Assembly (NCBI RefSeq): GCF_014126615.1
Contig: NZ_CP059896.1
Location: 1,994,501 to 2,058,500, forward strand
Direction: 5' to 3'
Source: Ciceribacter thiooxidans
GTDB taxonomy: Bacteria; Pseudomonadota; Alphaproteobacteria; Rhizobiales; Rhizobiaceae
DNA length: 64,000 nt
This document shows, in pieces, positions 23,428-60,540 of the stretch (the stretch's first letter is position 1; every line of letters starts with the position of its first letter). Below the pieces are notes generated by a model, which saw only the letters and a program-made list of their open reading frames with translations, was not told the DNA's origin and did no database searches. The translations under genes and the position numbers were made by a program.

Positions 23428-23442
23428 GTTCAACATTTGTTC
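23428..23442. promoter_or_regulatory. LexA (SOS) box of dinB
   Basis: GTTC-AACATTT-GTTC is an exact match to the alphaproteobacterial SOS box GTTC-N7-GTTC, five bases before the dinB ATG. A tentative promoter, TTGCCA (23386) with TAACGC (23409), would put the box just downstream of the transcription start, where LexA could block elongation. The box match is seen; binding is inferred from the family. Confidence 0.85.
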
Positions 23443-23447
23443 CAGCG

Positions 23448-24731
23448 ATGACAACCGACCTGACCGCGTATCCAGCCTTCTGCCGCGACTGCCTCAGAGG
23501 CCAGCCGCAAGGCAACCGTCGCTGCAGCAGCTGCGGCAGTCCCCGGCTCGTCTATCATACGGAACTCTACGGGCTCACGCTTGCCCACATCGATTGTGAC
23601 GCCTTCTACGCCTCGATCGAGAAGAGGGACAATCCGGAACTCGCCGACAAGCCGGTGATCGTCGGTGGCGGCAAGCGTGGTGTGGTCTCGACCGCCTGCT
23701 ACATCGCCCGCATTCACGGCGTCCGCTCCGCGATGCCCATGTTCAAGGCGCTGGAGGCCTGCCCCGACGCCGTCGTCATCAAGCCGGACATGCAGAAATA
23801 CGTACGCGTCGGACGCGAGGTGCGGGCGATGATGGAGGAACTGACGCCACTCGTGCAGCCACTCTCGATCGACGAGGCGTTCCTCGAGCTTTCCGGCACC
23901 GATCGGCTGCACCATGATCCGCCGGCACGCGTGCTCGCACGCTTCGCCCGCCGCGTCGAACAGGAAATCGGCATCACGGTCTCCGTCGGCCTTTCCTACT
24001 GCAAGTTTCTGGCGAAGGTCGCCTCCGACCTGCAGAAGCCGCGCGGCTTTTCGGTGATCGGCGAGGCAGAGGCGCTGGATTTTCTCGCCCCGCGCCCGGT
24101 GACGACGATCTGGGGCGTCGGAAAGGCGTTTGCGGCGACGCTCGAAAGCGACGGCATCCGTACCGTCGGGCAGCTGCAGACCATGGAGGAAGCCGATCTC
24201 ATGCGCCGTTACGGCTCGATCGGCCAGCGGCTCTACCGTCTTTCCCGCGGGATCGACGATCGCGACGTCCACCCGAACGAAGCGGCGAAGAGCGTTTCCG
24301 CCGAGACGACCTTCTTCGAAGACATCAGCCGCCGGGAGGATCTCATCATCCACCTGCGGGCTCTGTCGGAAAAGGTCGCCTGGCGGCTGAAGAAGCACGG
24401 GATTTCGGGGCAAACCGTCGTCCTGAAGCTCAAGACGGCGGATTTCAAGGGACGGACGCGCAACCGTCGCCTAGAGGACCCGACGCAGCTTGCCGACCGC
24501 ATCTTCCGTACCGGGCTGGCGCTCATGGAAAAGGAGGCTGACGGTACGCGTTTCCGGCTGATCGGGATCGGCGTGACCGACCTCAAGGAAGCCTCGGTCG
24601 CCGATCCGCCGGATCTGGTCGACCAGCAGGCCGGCCGACGCGCCGCCGCTGAAGCCGCGATGGACAAGCTGCGCGACAAGTTCGGCAAGTCGACGGTGGA
24701 GACCGGCTACACCTTCGGGCGGCGGAAATAG
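23448..24731 (+). CDS. dinB: DNA polymerase IV with N-terminal zinc-ribbon
   Basis: A 427-residue Y-family polymerase for translesion synthesis. The catalytic acidic residues are Asp49 and Asp51 ([12 protein letters not shown]) and Asp142-Glu143 ([10 protein letters not shown]). A helix-hairpin-helix follows ([10 protein letters not shown]) and then the little-finger domain. Unlike E. coli DinB, the first 30 residues carry Cys12-Cys15 and Cys26-Cys29, a likely zinc ribbon. No beta-clamp motif was identified with certainty; the C terminus ends [10 protein letters not shown] LexA box sits directly before the start, so SOS induction is expected. Confidence 0.95.
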
Positions 24732-26225: not shown

Positions 26226-29200
26226 TTACACCAGCTCGACGTCGACGATCCCAGGCGCCGACCGCAGCGCTGCCGCGATCTCCGGCGAGATGCGGTACTT
26301 TTCCGAAAGCTCGACCTCGATCTCGCGCTGGCCGTCTTCCTTGATGACGACGAAGGAGACGAGGCCGTCGCCCCTGGTGTTGAGGTGGGCGCCGACCGCC
26401 TTCAGCGGACCGGAATCGCGAACATAGACGCGTAGCGCCTTCTGCATCTGCAGCGATTTTTCTTCGAGCGACTGGGCCGTCTGGATCCTGAGCCCGATGC
26501 CCTCCGGCCGCTCTTCCGCAGCAACGGTGATCACCACGGATTTGCCGGACTCCAGAAGGTCGCGATACTGGTTCAGGCCTTCGGAAAACAGGACCGCCTC
26601 GAACTGCCCGGAGGAATCCGAAAAGGTGACGATGCCCATCTTGTTGCCGGTGCGGGTCTTGCGTTCCTGACGCCCCGTCACCGTGCCGGCGAGACGCCCG
26701 GCCGTCGCGCCCTGCTTCACCGCGGCGGAAAAATCGGCAAAGGTCTGGACGCGCATCTTTTCGAGGAGCGAGCGATAGGTGTCGAGCGGATGCGCGGAGA
26801 GATAGAAGCCCAGCACCTGGAATTCGCGGTGCAGCTTCTCCGAGGCGAGCCACGGCGTGTACGTCGGGAAGGCGATCTTCTCCGGCCCGGAGGCGCCGCC
26901 GGCACCGAACATGTCCGACTGGCCGCTGACGGCATTTTCCTGCGCGCGCTGCGCATAGCCGAGAATGCGGTCCAGCCCGCCGATCAGTTCGGCACGGTCG
27001 TGGCCGAAGCAATCGAAGGCGCCGGCACAGATCAGGCTTTCGAAGACACGGCGGTTGATCTGCTTCGGATCGATGCGCAGACAGAAATCCTCGAGGCTCT
27101 CGAAGGGCTTGTCGCCACGAACTTCGACGATGTGGTCGACGGCCGACTCGCCGACGCCCTTGATCGCAGCGAGCGCATAGTAGATGCAGCGATCGCCGGT
27201 CTGAAAGTGGCGGAACGAGGTCTGCACCGACGGTGGGATGACCTTGATGCCGAGACGCCCCGCATCCTGGCGGAAGTCGTTGAGCTTCTCGCTGTTGGCC
27301 ATATCGTAGGTCATCGTGGCGGCGAGGAACTCGACCGGATAATGCGCCTTCATGTAGGCCGTCTGGTAGGAGACGATCGCGTAGGCCGCAGCGTGTGACT
27401 TGTTGAAGCCGTAGTTGGCGAACTTGGCCAAGAGTTCGAAGATGTTCTCGGCCTGAGGCTTGGACACGCCGTTCTTCATCGCACCATCGACGAAGCGGGC
27501 GCTCTGCTGGTCCATCTCGGCCTTGATCTTCTTGCCCATGGCGCGGCGCAGAAGGTCGGCTTCGCCGAGCGAATAGCCCGACAGGACCTGGGCGATCTGC
27601 ATCACCTGTTCCTGGTAGACGATAACCCCTTGCGTCTCCTTCAACAGGTAGTCGATCTGCGGGTGGATGGAGGCAATTTCCTCCTCGCCATGCTTGCGGG
27701 CATTGTAGACCGGGATGTTCTCCATCGGACCCGGACGGTAGAGCGCCACCAGCGCGATGATGTCCTCGATACAGTCCGGTCGCATGCCGATCAGCGCCTT
27801 GCGCATGCCGGCACTTTCAACCTGGAACACGCCGACGGTTTCGCCGCGGGAGAGCATTTCGTAGGTCAGCTTGTCGTCGAGCGGAATCGCTGCCAGGTCG
27901 ACGTCGACGCCTCTCTGCTCCTTGACGAAATCGACAGCCGTCTTCAGCACCGTCAGCGTCTTCAGGCCGAGAAAGTCGAACTTGACCAGCCCCGCCTGCT
28001 CGACCCATTTCATGTTGAACTGGGTCACCGGCATGTCGGAACGCGGATCGCGATACATCGGCACCAGCTTCGACAACGGGCGGTCGCCGATGACGATACC
28101 GGCGGCGTGGGTCGAGGCGTGGCGGTAGAGGCCCTCGATCTTCTGGGCGATGTCGAGAAGACGGGCGACGACCGGCTCCGCTTCCGCCTCCTCGCGGAGC
28201 TTCGGTTCCTCCTCGATCGCCTTGGAAAGCGGCGTCGGGTTCGCCGGGTTGTTCGGCACCAGCTTGCAGATCTTGTCGACCTGGCCGTAGGGCATCTCCA
28301 GCACGCGGCCGACATCGCGCAGGGCCGCACGCGCCTGCAGCGAACCGAAGGTGATGATCTGCGCCACCTGCTCACGGCCGTACTTCTGCTGGACGTAGCG
28401 GATCACCTCTTCGCGCCGGTCCTGGCAGAAGTCGATGTCGAAGTCGGGCATCGACACGCGTTCCGGATTGAGGAAGCGTTCGAAGAGCAGCGAGAAGCGC
28501 AAGGGGTCGACGTCGGTGATGGTGAGCGCATAGGCGACCAGCGAGCCCGCGCCCGAACCGCGGCCCGGACCGACGGGAATGTCGTGCTGCTTCGCCCACT
28601 TGATGAAGTCGGAAACGATCAGGAAGTAGCCGGGAAACTTCATCCGCTCGATGATCGAGAGCTCGAATTCGAGCCGTTCGCGGTAATCCTTCTCCTCGTA
28701 GCCCGCCGCCATTCCGAGCGCGGCGAGCCTCCGGTCGAGCCCCTCGACCGCCTGCCGCCGCAATTCCTCCGCCTCGGCTTTCTCCGCCTCCTCCGGATCG
28801 GCGCCGACGCCGGCAAAGCGCGGCAGGATCGGTTTGCGCGTGTTGAGCACGAAGGAGCACCGCATGGCGATCTCGACGGTGTTCTCGATCGCCTCCGGCA
28901 AGTCGGCGAAGAGCGCCTGCATCTCGGCCCGGCTCTTCAGATAATGGTCGGGCGTCAGGCGGAAGCGGTTGTCGTCGGAAACGATCGCATTGTGGGCGAC
29001 GGCCATCAGCGCGTCATGCGCGTCGTAGTCCTCCCGGGTGAGAAAGAACGCTTCGTTGGTCGCAACCAGCGGCAGGTCGTACTGATAGGCGAGCTGCACC
29101 ATCTTCGTCTCGTGGCGACGATCGTAGTCGCCGTGACGCTGCAACTCGACATAAAGCCGGTCGCCGAAGAGCCGCTTCAGCGTCGAAAGCCGCGCCTCGG

Positions 29201-29714
29201 CCTGCGCCCCGTGCCCTTCCTGAAGGGCGACATCGACCGGTCCGCCCGAAGCCCCGGTCAATGCGATCAGCCCGTCCGTGCCGCGTTCTTCCAGCCACGA
29301 CGTGGTGACATGCACCGCCTGGTGCCCCTCTCCTTCGAGGTAGGCACGGCTGACGAGATCCACGAGCCGCTCGTAGCCGGCGGCATCCGCCGCAAGCAAC
29401 ACGATCGCAGGGTATCTGGCGGGCGCATGCGACGAACGTTTATCGTCCCGCGCATCCTCCATATCGATCGACAACTGGCAGCCGATGATCGGTTGCAGCC
29501 CGTCACCGACGGCATATTGCGAAAACTCGAGCGCGACGAAGAGATTGTTGGTGTCAGTGATGGCGACCGCCGGCTGGCCGTCGGCGGCGGCCTTGCGGAG
29601 AATCTTCTTCAGCGGCAATGCGCCTTCGAGCAGCGAATAGGCCGAATGGAGGCGCAAATGCACAAAACCCGGCGACCCTGCCTCGTGCACACCTTCGCCA
29701 ACTGCTTCGCCCAT
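26226..29714 (-). CDS. dnaE: DNA polymerase III subunit alpha
   Basis: DnaE (1162 residues) is the replicative polymerase subunit. The PHP domain starts at FVHLRLHSAYSLLEGALP; the catalytic aspartates lie in PDFDIDFCQDRR near residue 425; a helix-hairpin-helix and OB-fold region follow, ending with a normal C terminus (about 1160). It is the chromosomal DnaE1 type, not the shorter ImuC/DnaE2 type. A 28-residue SOS-controlled frame lies 111 bases upstream on the same strand. Confidence 0.97.
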   Translation of the reverse strand: MGEAVGEGVHEAGSPGFVHLRLHSAYSLLEGALPLKKILRKAAADGQPAVAITDTNNLFVALEFSQYAVGDGLQPIIGCQLSIDMEDARDDKRSSHAPARYPAIVLLAADAAGYERLVDLVSRAYLEGEGHQAVHVTTSWLEERGTDGLIALTGASGGPVDVALQEGHGAQAEARLSTLKRLFGDRLYVELQRHGDYDRRHETKMVQLAYQYDLPLVATNEAFFLTREDYDAHDALMAVAHNAIVSDDNRFRLTPDHYLKSRAEMQALFADLPEAIENTVEIAMRCSFVLNTRKPILPRFAGVGADPEEAEKAEAEELRRQAVEGLDRRLAALGMAAGYEEKDYRERLEFELSIIERMKFPGYFLIVSDFIKWAKQHDIPVGPGRGSGAGSLVAYALTITDVDPLRFSLLFERFLNPERVSMPDFDIDFCQDRREEVIRYVQQKYGREQVAQIITFGSLQARAALRDVGRVLEMPYGQVDKICKLVPNNPANPTPLSKAIEEEPKLREEAEAEPVVARLLDIAQKIEGLYRHASTHAAGIVIGDRPLSKLVPMYRDPRSDMPVTQFNMKWVEQAGLVKFDFLGLKTLTVLKTAVDFVKEQRGVDVDLAAIPLDDKLTYEMLSRGETVGVFQVESAGMRKALIGMRPDCIEDIIALVALYRPGPMENIPVYNARKHGEEEIASIHPQIDYLLKETQGVIVYQEQVMQIAQVLSGYSLGEADLLRRAMGKKIKAEMDQQSARFVDGAMKNGVSKPQAENIFELLAKFANYGFNKSHAAAYAIVSYQTAYMKAHYPVEFLAATMTYDMANSEKLNDFRQDAGRLGIKVIPPSVQTSFRHFQTGDRCIYYALAAIKGVGESAVDHIVEVRGDKPFESLEDFCLRIDPKQINRRVFESLICAGAFDCFGHDRAELIGGLDRILGYAQRAQENAVSGQSDMFGAGGASGPEKIAFPTYTPWLASEKLHREFQVLGFYLSAHPLDTYRSLLEKMRVQTFADFSAAVKQGATAGRLAGTVTGRQERKTRTGNKMGIVTFSDSSGQFEAVLFSEGLNQYRDLLESGKSVVITVAAEERPEGIGLRIQTAQSLEEKSLQMQKALRVYVRDSGPLKAVGAHLNTRGDGLVSFVVIKEDGQREIEVELSEKYRISPEIAAALRSAPGIVDVELV

Positions 29715-29825
29715 ATCCGTCTACCCGCATCCGATGAATCGGTGCGATTTTCGGTCGCCCCGACAGGGAAGTCCAGCCTTCGCGACCGGACACGGGTCAC
29801 TCTCTACAGGATAGGTGCGAGAACC

Positions 29826-29912
29826 TCAAATCGCGGAGACGATCACCGAGAAACCGGTGAGGAACATGAGGATCGAGGCGAATGCGGCGACATCACGGAA
29901 AACATCAGTCAT
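29826..29912 (-). CDS. 28-residue membrane peptide under SOS control (SidA-like candidate)
   Basis: A frame too short for most gene callers: MTDVFRDVAAFASILMFLTG and then FSVIVSAI, one transmembrane helix from about residue 9 to 28 with a short acidic-basic N terminus. Its ATG is preceded by AAGGAGTGA at ideal spacing. Upstream, TTGACA and CAAAAT 17 bases apart form a promoter whose spacer is filled by a perfect LexA box. In Caulobacter, SidA is a 29-residue SOS-induced membrane peptide that blocks division; size, topology and regulation match, but homology to SidA could not be tested here. Confidence 0.8.
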   Translation of the reverse strand: MTDVFRDVAAFASILMFLTGFSVIVSAI

Positions 29913-30171
29913 GGCTCACTCCTTACTCTTTATGTTTTTATTTTGTTCCGTGTTTGTTCTCTTGTCAACCCAAAAAGGGTCATATACTTCCATTCACGAT
30001 GCGAATGCGCTGGAACATAGAGGAAACGCAGCAGACGGTGCGGTCGGCCGCATCGCTTTGCCCGGCGCCGCAGAGTTCAGACAGGATAGATGAGGGTGGT
30101 AACCGTCAGAGCCCGGTGCGCCGCATGACATGCATCGGCCGGGGCCTTCGTCAGATCTCGGCCCGAAGTCG
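29913..30171. other. Intergenic region between the SOS peptide and lolD
   Basis: Apart from the SOS promoter at 29940-29968, nothing with gene character was seen. The short frames here lack ribosome sites and coding bias. Confidence 0.5.
29940..29968 (-). promoter_or_regulatory. SOS promoter of the 28-residue peptide, with LexA box
   Basis: -35 TTGACA (29968-29963), 17-base spacer, -10 CAAAAT (29945-29940). The LexA box GAAC-AAACACG-GAAC (29959-29945) occupies the spacer and touches the -10, the classic position for repression. Transcription would start near 29933, leaving a 20-base leader with a strong ribosome site. Confidence 0.85.
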
Positions 30172-30873
<702 letters not shown>

Positions 30874-59928: not shown

Positions 59929-60540
59929 ATGAACAAGCGGCGCGCATACGAAGAGGTTACGATTGTGCACGGCGACCACGCCGTGACGCTTCGCCCTTCC
60001 TTGCGCGCCGCCACCATCCTTGAAGAGCGTCACGGCCTCCCGAACCTGTTCCGGGCGCTGGACGATCTCAGCCTTACGATCATTTCCGAAATCATTCTGG
60101 TATCCTTTAGCAGTGGCAACCAGAATGCAGCGGCCTTCCTGTCTTCACTCCGTGGAAGGCCGCTTCTCCCCTTTTTCCTGTCCGTTCGCGCCCCGCTCGC
60201 CGAACTCGTTTCCATGCTCACCCCGGCACCCGATCCGAAGGCGAAGCACAAGCCGACCACCGCCAAGCCCATGACATGGGCCGAAGTGTTCGCCGCTCTC
60301 TATGAGCGCGCGACCGGCTGGCTTGGCTGGACACCCGAACAGGCATGGAACGCCACCCCGACCGAAATCGACCGGGCCTATAGGGCGCACCTCGAAAAGC
60401 TGAAGGCCATCAACGGCGGCACCGACGAAGACAAGGAACCGGACCCCGAACAGGTTGAGCGCAACATTGCCGCTGGCCTCGATCCCGAATTTGACCGTGC
60501 CGCTCTTCACGCCCTCAAAGGCAAGGGAAAGGACGCATGA
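59929..60540 (+). CDS. Tail-assembly-chaperone-like protein
   Basis: A 203-residue protein. The first 90 residues (VTLRPSLRAATILEERHGLPNLFRALDDLS) resemble GTA gp10-like chaperones, and the middle segment WLGWTPEQAWNATPTEIDRAYRAH resembles the small phage chaperones (DUF2376-like) that follow gp10 in gene-transfer agents. It could therefore be a fusion of two chaperones. It lies three bases after the capsid gene, an unusual place for tail-assembly functions. The C-terminal end is charged. Confidence 0.65.
   Translation: MNKRRAYEEVTIVHGDHAVTLRPSLRAATILEERHGLPNLFRALDDLSLTIISEIILVSFSSGNQNAAAFLSSLRGRPLLPFFLSVRAPLAELVSMLTPAPDPKAKHKPTTAKPMTWAEVFAALYERATGWLGWTPEQAWNATPTEIDRAYRAHLEKLKAINGGTDEDKEPDPEQVERNIAAGLDPEFDRAALHALKGKGKDA

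Follow-up and report, generated by a model that had tools for sequence, protein, structure and literature searches.

A putatively LexA-controlled gene for a predicted 28-residue membrane peptide before dnaE1 of Ciceribacter thiooxidans, a probable rhizobial orthologue of the division inhibitor gene sidA

The window, as we call the whole stretch of 64,000 nucleotides of the Ciceribacter thiooxidans genome that was analysed, carries a very small gene on the minus strand between dnaE1 and a lolD-like gene. Its 28 codons run from ATG to TGA (29826..29912, minus strand) and encode the peptide MTDVFRDVAAFASILMFLTGFSVIVSAI, which has 28 amino acids and one predicted hydrophobic transmembrane helix; the 19-residue hydropathy maximum of 2.19 is reached by only 3 of the 222 open reading frames of 24 to 45 amino acids in the window, the peptide itself included. 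A Shine-Dalgarno sequence, AAGGAG (29919..29924, minus strand), stands 6 nt before the ATG, and its AGGAG is conserved in the genus alignment. Further upstream lies a promoter, TTGACA-N17-CAAAAT, with the −35 hexamer TTGACA at 29963..29968 (minus strand; sigma70 scan, TTGAC conserved in the genus alignment) and the −10 hexamer CAAAAT at 29940..29945 (minus strand; sigma70 scan and genus alignment). It is the sole promoter-like site that the sigma70 scan found on either strand of 29650-30200, a region for which shuffled sequences gave a mean of 0.3. The spacer is filled by a LexA box (29945..29959, minus strand), GTTC-N7-GTTC on the plus strand and GAACAAACACGGAAC in the sense of the gene (GAAC-N7-GAAC); its letters, GTTCCGTGTTTGTTC, make a perfect box, of which the proximal half overlaps the −10 hexamer by one base. 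The downstream neighbour is dnaE1, encoding the DNA polymerase III alpha subunit (26226..29714, minus strand; NCBIfam NF004226 above its cut-off). The upstream neighbour (30172..30873, minus strand), given here as context only, has TIGR02211 LolD as its best NCBIfam match, below the cut-off of that family. An earlier, sequence-only reading of this DNA had proposed the 28-codon frame with one helix, the TTGACA-N17-CAAAAT promoter, the perfect LexA box inside its spacer and the strong AAGGAG site, and all of these were recovered.

Any lone LexA box is weak evidence. The box motif by itself occurs four times in the window versus 2.5 expected, which 23 of 100 shuffles attain, and 184 times in the genome versus 97 for the reversed pattern. 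The combination TTGAC-N4-GAAC-N7-GAAC occurs exactly once in the 5.04-Mb genome, and at least one match to it is present in 50 of 60 congeneric genomes (the window's own included, and counting some matches at other loci), and the reversed pattern is present in 1 of the 60; the whole promoter-box arrangement is well above chance. From the 184 box regions we chose 17 for a look at the regulon and classified the neighbours for those at lexA, ssb/uvrA, dinB and one further locus (L215). A box of the same type ends 46 nt before the lexA match (C1:1705266), roughly 40 nt ahead of the start codon, another lies between ssb and uvrA, and a second LexA-type box of the window, GTTCAACATTTGTTC (23428-23442, plus strand), ends 5 nt before a gene for a dinB-type DNA polymerase IV with a cysteine-rich N-terminus (23448-24731, plus strand). 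The GAAC-N7-GAAC motif fits the operator predicted to be used here, although some of its copies may not be operators. Elsewhere in the window, at 60328-60351 (plus strand), TGGACA stands 3 nt ahead of a perfect GAAC-N7-GAAC box, and a small open reading frame (L218, 1638-2024) lies roughly 185 nt further downstream; the site is possibly a further LexA-controlled promoter. At L215 (1431-1445; genome C1:1571430), a LexA-type box with an AT-rich spacer lies between two divergent open reading frames (838-1344, minus; 1495-2205, plus) for which no NCBIfam family match was found; they are candidates for further SOS genes.

The peptide was found in 34 of the 60 genomes searched (the window's own included), that is, in 34 of 36 genomes of the genus and in none of the 24 taken from the order's other families; one of the two genomes of the genus that were missed (G011) was recovered by a later profile search. 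At the 30 genus loci compared, the length of 28 codons and the ATG start are kept without exception. Among the 28 distinct coding sequences, variation affects 17 of 28 columns at codon position 1, 6 of 28 at position 2 and 25 of 28 at position 3. A usable dS was obtained for 356 of the 378 pairs; none of these has a dN/dS of 1 or more, and the median is 0.21. By these codon statistics, the 28-codon frame is a real gene. The sequence-only reading had named loss of the frame in close relatives as the observation that would speak against it, and no such loss was seen at the 30 loci; of the conservation that it proposed to look for, that of the frame holds throughout and that of the perfect LexA box at 23 loci, the distal half-box having decayed at the other 7. 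These seven (L003, L004, L017 and L026-L029) retain the promoter and the intact frame, and repression may be weaker there or may act via a shifted repeat.

Beyond the genus, a profile of 18 peptides had matches at E ≤ 0.05 in 142 of 297 genomes of the rhizobial family, belonging to 56 of its 109 genera, a count in which the weakest matches may be due to chance. Closer inspection of the 29 best-scoring new loci of these 142, three of which belong to the genus of the window, revealed dnaE as the next gene after the peptide in 29 of 29; the box was perfect in 22 and had one mismatch in 6, and one locus (L047) was left unscored. No Pfam or NCBIfam family of note matched the peptide, and a Pfam search with the 18 members at E ≤ 1 returned DUFs alone (0.09-0.16).

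In the class as a whole, a DnaE match was obtained in 367 of 385 genomes, from which 82 upstream stretches were fetched, a non-random sample taken mostly best-scoring first and then in listed order, with two picked because they are Caulobacteraceae. We recognised the DnaE start in 72 of them and dropped the remaining 10. Within 650 nt upstream of dnaE1, 22 of 72 loci have a box in the sense of the gene and 5 have one in the reverse sense; a control motif was seen at none of the 72. All 22 box-bearing loci have a hydrophobic open reading frame of 24 to 60 amino acids within 130 nt of the box, so that box, peptide and dnaE1 occur together at 22 of the 72 loci; counted per box, such a small hydrophobic frame follows 26 of 26 boxes versus 164 of 1,300 same-distance positions in the 50 box-less loci. 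At those 50 of the 72 scored loci, where no gene-sense box was found before dnaE1, the arrangement was either lost or never present, or the boxes are weaker.

SidA of Caulobacter crescentus is an inner-membrane peptide of 29 residues that is reported to act on FtsW (PMC4211646), and the filamentation of a lexA deletion strain is ascribed to sidA, lexA sidA double mutants being reported to filament less (PMC12700426). Caulobacteraceae genomes were recognised by a beta-clamp identity of 76-82% to PDB 5wce, which we take to be the C. crescentus beta-clamp. A DnaE query from the family so identified led to 80 named dnaE1 loci, of which 62 were counted as Caulobacteraceae-type by rank and title, and the region before dnaE1 was scored for the peptide pattern M-x-[RQ]-x-x-[RKQ]-[DE], with a box window of 110 nt. 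A membrane peptide of 29 to 31 amino acids precedes dnaE1 in 57 of the 62 loci (43 peptides of 29, 2 of 30 and 12 of 31 amino acids), with a LexA box that is perfect in 45 and at best a one-mismatch box in 12. Examples are MVRIARESLALVSVAGFVWMMCSVAQLVT, the 29-residue peptide of Caulobacter zeae (L175), and MARWVRDLLSLASCGGFVWMVWQAAFLVT from Brevundimonas (L147), both without a perfect box; among seven inspected loci with Caulobacter in their title, two boxes are perfect and five have one mismatch. By the same pattern no such peptide was found in 5 of the 62 loci, namely, three of Asticcacaulis, L188, and L174, a Brevundimonas locus with an abnormal frame. In the three Asticcacaulis loci (L167, L171 and L194), the SidA-type peptide may have been lost, have moved or have diverged. 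With the C. zeae peptide as the query, matches were obtained in 82 of 99 genomes of the Caulobacteraceae-type family; 28 of the best 30 could be parsed, and in 28 of 28 a DnaE start follows; the box is perfect at 21 of these and has one mismatch at the other 7. At three Caulobacteraceae loci (L278, L280 and L284), three adjacent GAAC-type boxes stand before the peptide, one of them perfect and two with one mismatch. The order of sidA before dnaE1 agrees with the literature tags, which are given as CC1926 for C. crescentus dnaE (PMC1839093) and as CCNA_02004 for sidA (PMC10769358).

In the comparison of the peptides themselves, related Caulobacteraceae peptides stood in for SidA of C. crescentus NA1000. 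Rhizobial and Caulobacteraceae peptides have in common the motif [R/K/Q][D/E]xx[A/S][L/F]xS, which lies equally far from the start codon in both. The columns that agree are 6-7 (a basic-acidic pair), 10-11 (A/S-L/F), S13 and F17. In hhalign, residues 1-18 of 43 rhizobial and 56 Caulobacteraceae sequences, one of the latter being a junk row, align unshifted (Prob 59, E 9.2e-5), and column-permuted controls attain the real score in 8 and 20 of 200 cases. Because some of the permutation values were aberrant, an ungapped register score and a slide control were added. With the junk row taken out, the register score was attained by 2 of 20,000 column permutations and, with residues 2-8 and 9-28 permuted apart, by 53 of 20,000. 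Of the 13 shifts from −6 to +6, shift 0 was best, with −0.30 bits per column versus −0.83 to −2.09, although even this best score lies below zero, since the two groups disagree in many columns. The C-terminal halves differ, and the FVWM stretch of the Caulobacteraceae is absent from the rhizobial peptides. Conservation showed no helical periodicity in permutation tests (6,751 and 8,673 of 20,000 permutations attain the observed values), and the 19-residue hydropathy maximum is 2.19 here versus 1.47-2.06 in three Caulobacteraceae peptides.

Judged by sequence statistics alone, the case for homology is modest. Taken together with synteny and operator, however, orthology to SidA is the simplest reading, and the peptide gene is probably a SidA orthologue, beyond being merely SidA-like; the sequence evidence gives good support both to orthology and to LexA control. 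The suggestion of the sequence-only reading, argued from size and regulation only, that this is a rhizobial SidA equivalent thus gains from the conserved frame, from the dnaE1 synteny in 57 of 62 Caulobacteraceae-type loci and from the N-terminal motif in register, which the comparison with SidA that it had called for brought out (2 of 20,000 permutations). We consider it likely that the gene is a LexA-repressed rhizobial sidA orthologue whose product inhibits division by stalling the late divisome (FtsW/FtsI/FtsN). The gene, its constraint, the box, the synteny and the motif can be read from the DNA; induction, membrane insertion, FtsW as the target and division arrest are what we infer from them.

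In our model, LexA would occupy the direct-repeat box in the −35/−10 spacer of the undamaged cell and keep the promoter shut. DNA damage would lead to RecA-driven self-cleavage of LexA and open the promoter, and the well-initiated 28-residue peptide would then enter the inner membrane. There it may block the activity of the late septal wall complex (FtsW/FtsI/FtsN), and the cell would elongate without dividing until repair is complete. Low-confidence AlphaFold 3 models published in 2026 place SidA on TM7 of FtsW (PMC13396833). On the scale of the class, we think it fairly likely that SidA is an old alphaproteobacterial SOS checkpoint, which many lineages keep immediately ahead of dnaE1 and others have lost, and that LexA sites of the class that are credited to dnaE are really sidA operators.

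The peptide gene adjoins dnaE1 at each family locus read, and it could instead encode a leader peptide (as a uORF) for the tuning of dnaE1 expression, with the LexA promoter raising the replicative polymerase during the SOS response and the product being incidental. Some published statements can be read in this direction. A comparison of alphaproteobacterial LexA regulons counts dnaE among the genes already reported to be SOS-regulated in C. crescentus (PMC3323433), and Ribo-seq of Sinorhizobium meliloti is described as revealing a translated, previously unannotated sORF25 in the 5′-UTR of dnaE1, one of a class of open reading frames for which uORF roles were suggested (PMC10117765). By its published description, sORF25 is probably this peptide; if so, its translation without added damage is an uneasy fit with tight repression. 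No terminator was found between the peptide gene and dnaE1 in the window, and therefore read-through into dnaE1 is possible; the stretch between them folds no better than shuffles (z = 0.5), and a strong hairpin is seen in two relatives (L024 and L025). In a sub-clade (L016 and L019-L025), an inverted repeat like GGGCGGCAAAGC...GCTTTGCCGCCC lies between the peptide stop and dnaE1, without a T-run; it may be a terminator or an RNA element.

Against such a leader function stand the purifying selection on the amino acids, which goes beyond what mere translation would call for, and the small hydrophobic frame after all 26 boxes across the class. The distance from the peptide stop codon to the DnaE start motif also varies, from 165 to 438 nt across the genus. 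Furthermore, past the peptide gene the intergenic alignment of the genus shows another conserved element that resembles a promoter, marked by CTGGAC and cGA..AAaT: TGGACT (29775-29770), 17 nt and GAAAAT (29752-29747) form a possible separate dnaE1 promoter (29747..29775, minus strand), seen by eye in the alignment and not picked up by the sigma70 scan of 29650-30200. dnaE1 may thus be transcribed independently, in which case the peptide gene would form a separate SOS unit. The LexA promoter and the ribosome-binding site are fitted to the peptide, and the listing of dnaE as LexA-regulated probably rests on the site of the peptide gene. In Caulobacter, it is the peptide itself that is reported to act (PMC4211646, PMC12700426). 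On balance we regard a leader peptide for dnaE1 as improbable.

A second alternative is an SOS toxin of the TisB type, that is, a LexA-controlled small membrane peptide that would depolarise the inner membrane and favour dormancy, without acting on the divisome. TisB belongs to the same size class as the 28-residue peptide, and a short hydrophobic helix alone fits SidA and TisB equally. SOS control would fit as well; a published abstract describes TisB as SOS-induced and as depolarising the inner membrane. However, no Pfam toxin family matched any of the 18 members at E ≤ 1, and synteny and motif favour SidA. There is also no sign of an antisense antitoxin, because crude scans confined to the window found no promoter-like site on the opposite strand of 29650-30200 and no credible Rfam match. 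Two microRNA matches that the Rfam search did return (E 0.55-0.99) are far under their gathering scores and were discarded. Such a toxin is a reading to which we give little credence.

The peptide might also be a SidA homologue with a changed target, for example, another inner-membrane protein, since the alignment covers only about the first 18 residues and the rhizobial C-terminal half has diverged. The tail of the peptide, however, varies even inside the Caulobacteraceae, and the N-terminal motif and the operator are retained; we regard a change of target as very unlikely. That a random frame merely happens to follow a random LexA box can be dismissed with near certainty: box motifs alone are frequent in window and genome, but frame, length, codon-position pattern, box and gene order are all kept together.

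Rhizobia probably rely on the same SOS division brake as Caulobacter. SulA is out as a candidate: a search for Pfam SulA gave no match in any of 40 genomes (the window's own and 39 relatives), with a positive E. coli control, and the peptide itself has no Pfam SulA match, in line with the remark of the sequence-only reading that rhizobia have no obvious SulA. In the literature searched, whose coverage was partial, no gene is assigned to a rhizobial SOS division stop without SulA, and the peptide offers one concrete gene per genome. The earlier view that it had been overlooked stands only in part: sORF25, probably the same peptide, and the LexA listing of dnaE were already in print, and the main text of the sORF25 article (PMC10117765) contains neither LexA nor SOS. 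A rhizobial SidA homologue is not announced among the matches listed, from a literature covered in part and with most subscription papers outside it. With the rhizobial peptides, SidA would grow from a single-genus case to a family, and dozens of aligned sequences could point to the residues that meet FtsW. The regulon entry under dnaE may also need correcting; the box probably serves the peptide, and the replicative polymerase would then not have to count among the SOS genes.

Among known systems, SulA of the gamma-proteobacteria is also described as an SOS division inhibitor, but it acts on FtsZ. TisB of E. coli is a toxin with an antisense RNA partner. It is likewise said to be SOS-induced and membrane-acting, whereas the searches found no toxin family match for this peptide and the scan of 29650-30200 no antisense promoter. 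YneA of Bacillus subtilis, SosA of Staphylococcus aureus and ChiZ of Mycobacterium tuberculosis are longer than the 28-residue peptide or unrelated to it. In published descriptions they are, like DidA of C. crescentus, damage-induced membrane proteins of late division; DidA differs in having 71 amino acids and in being SOS-independent. SidA is the system that the peptide resembles in length (28 versus 29 residues), in its one hydrophobic helix, in the LexA box in the promoter, in the gene position directly before dnaE1 and in the [R/K/Q][D/E]xx[A/S][L/F]xS motif at an equal distance from the start. The peptide differs from it in the diverged C-terminal half, and its gene in the number of boxes: a single one fills the −35/−10 spacer here, whereas Caulobacteraceae promoters often carry at least two in tandem, perfect or nearly so.
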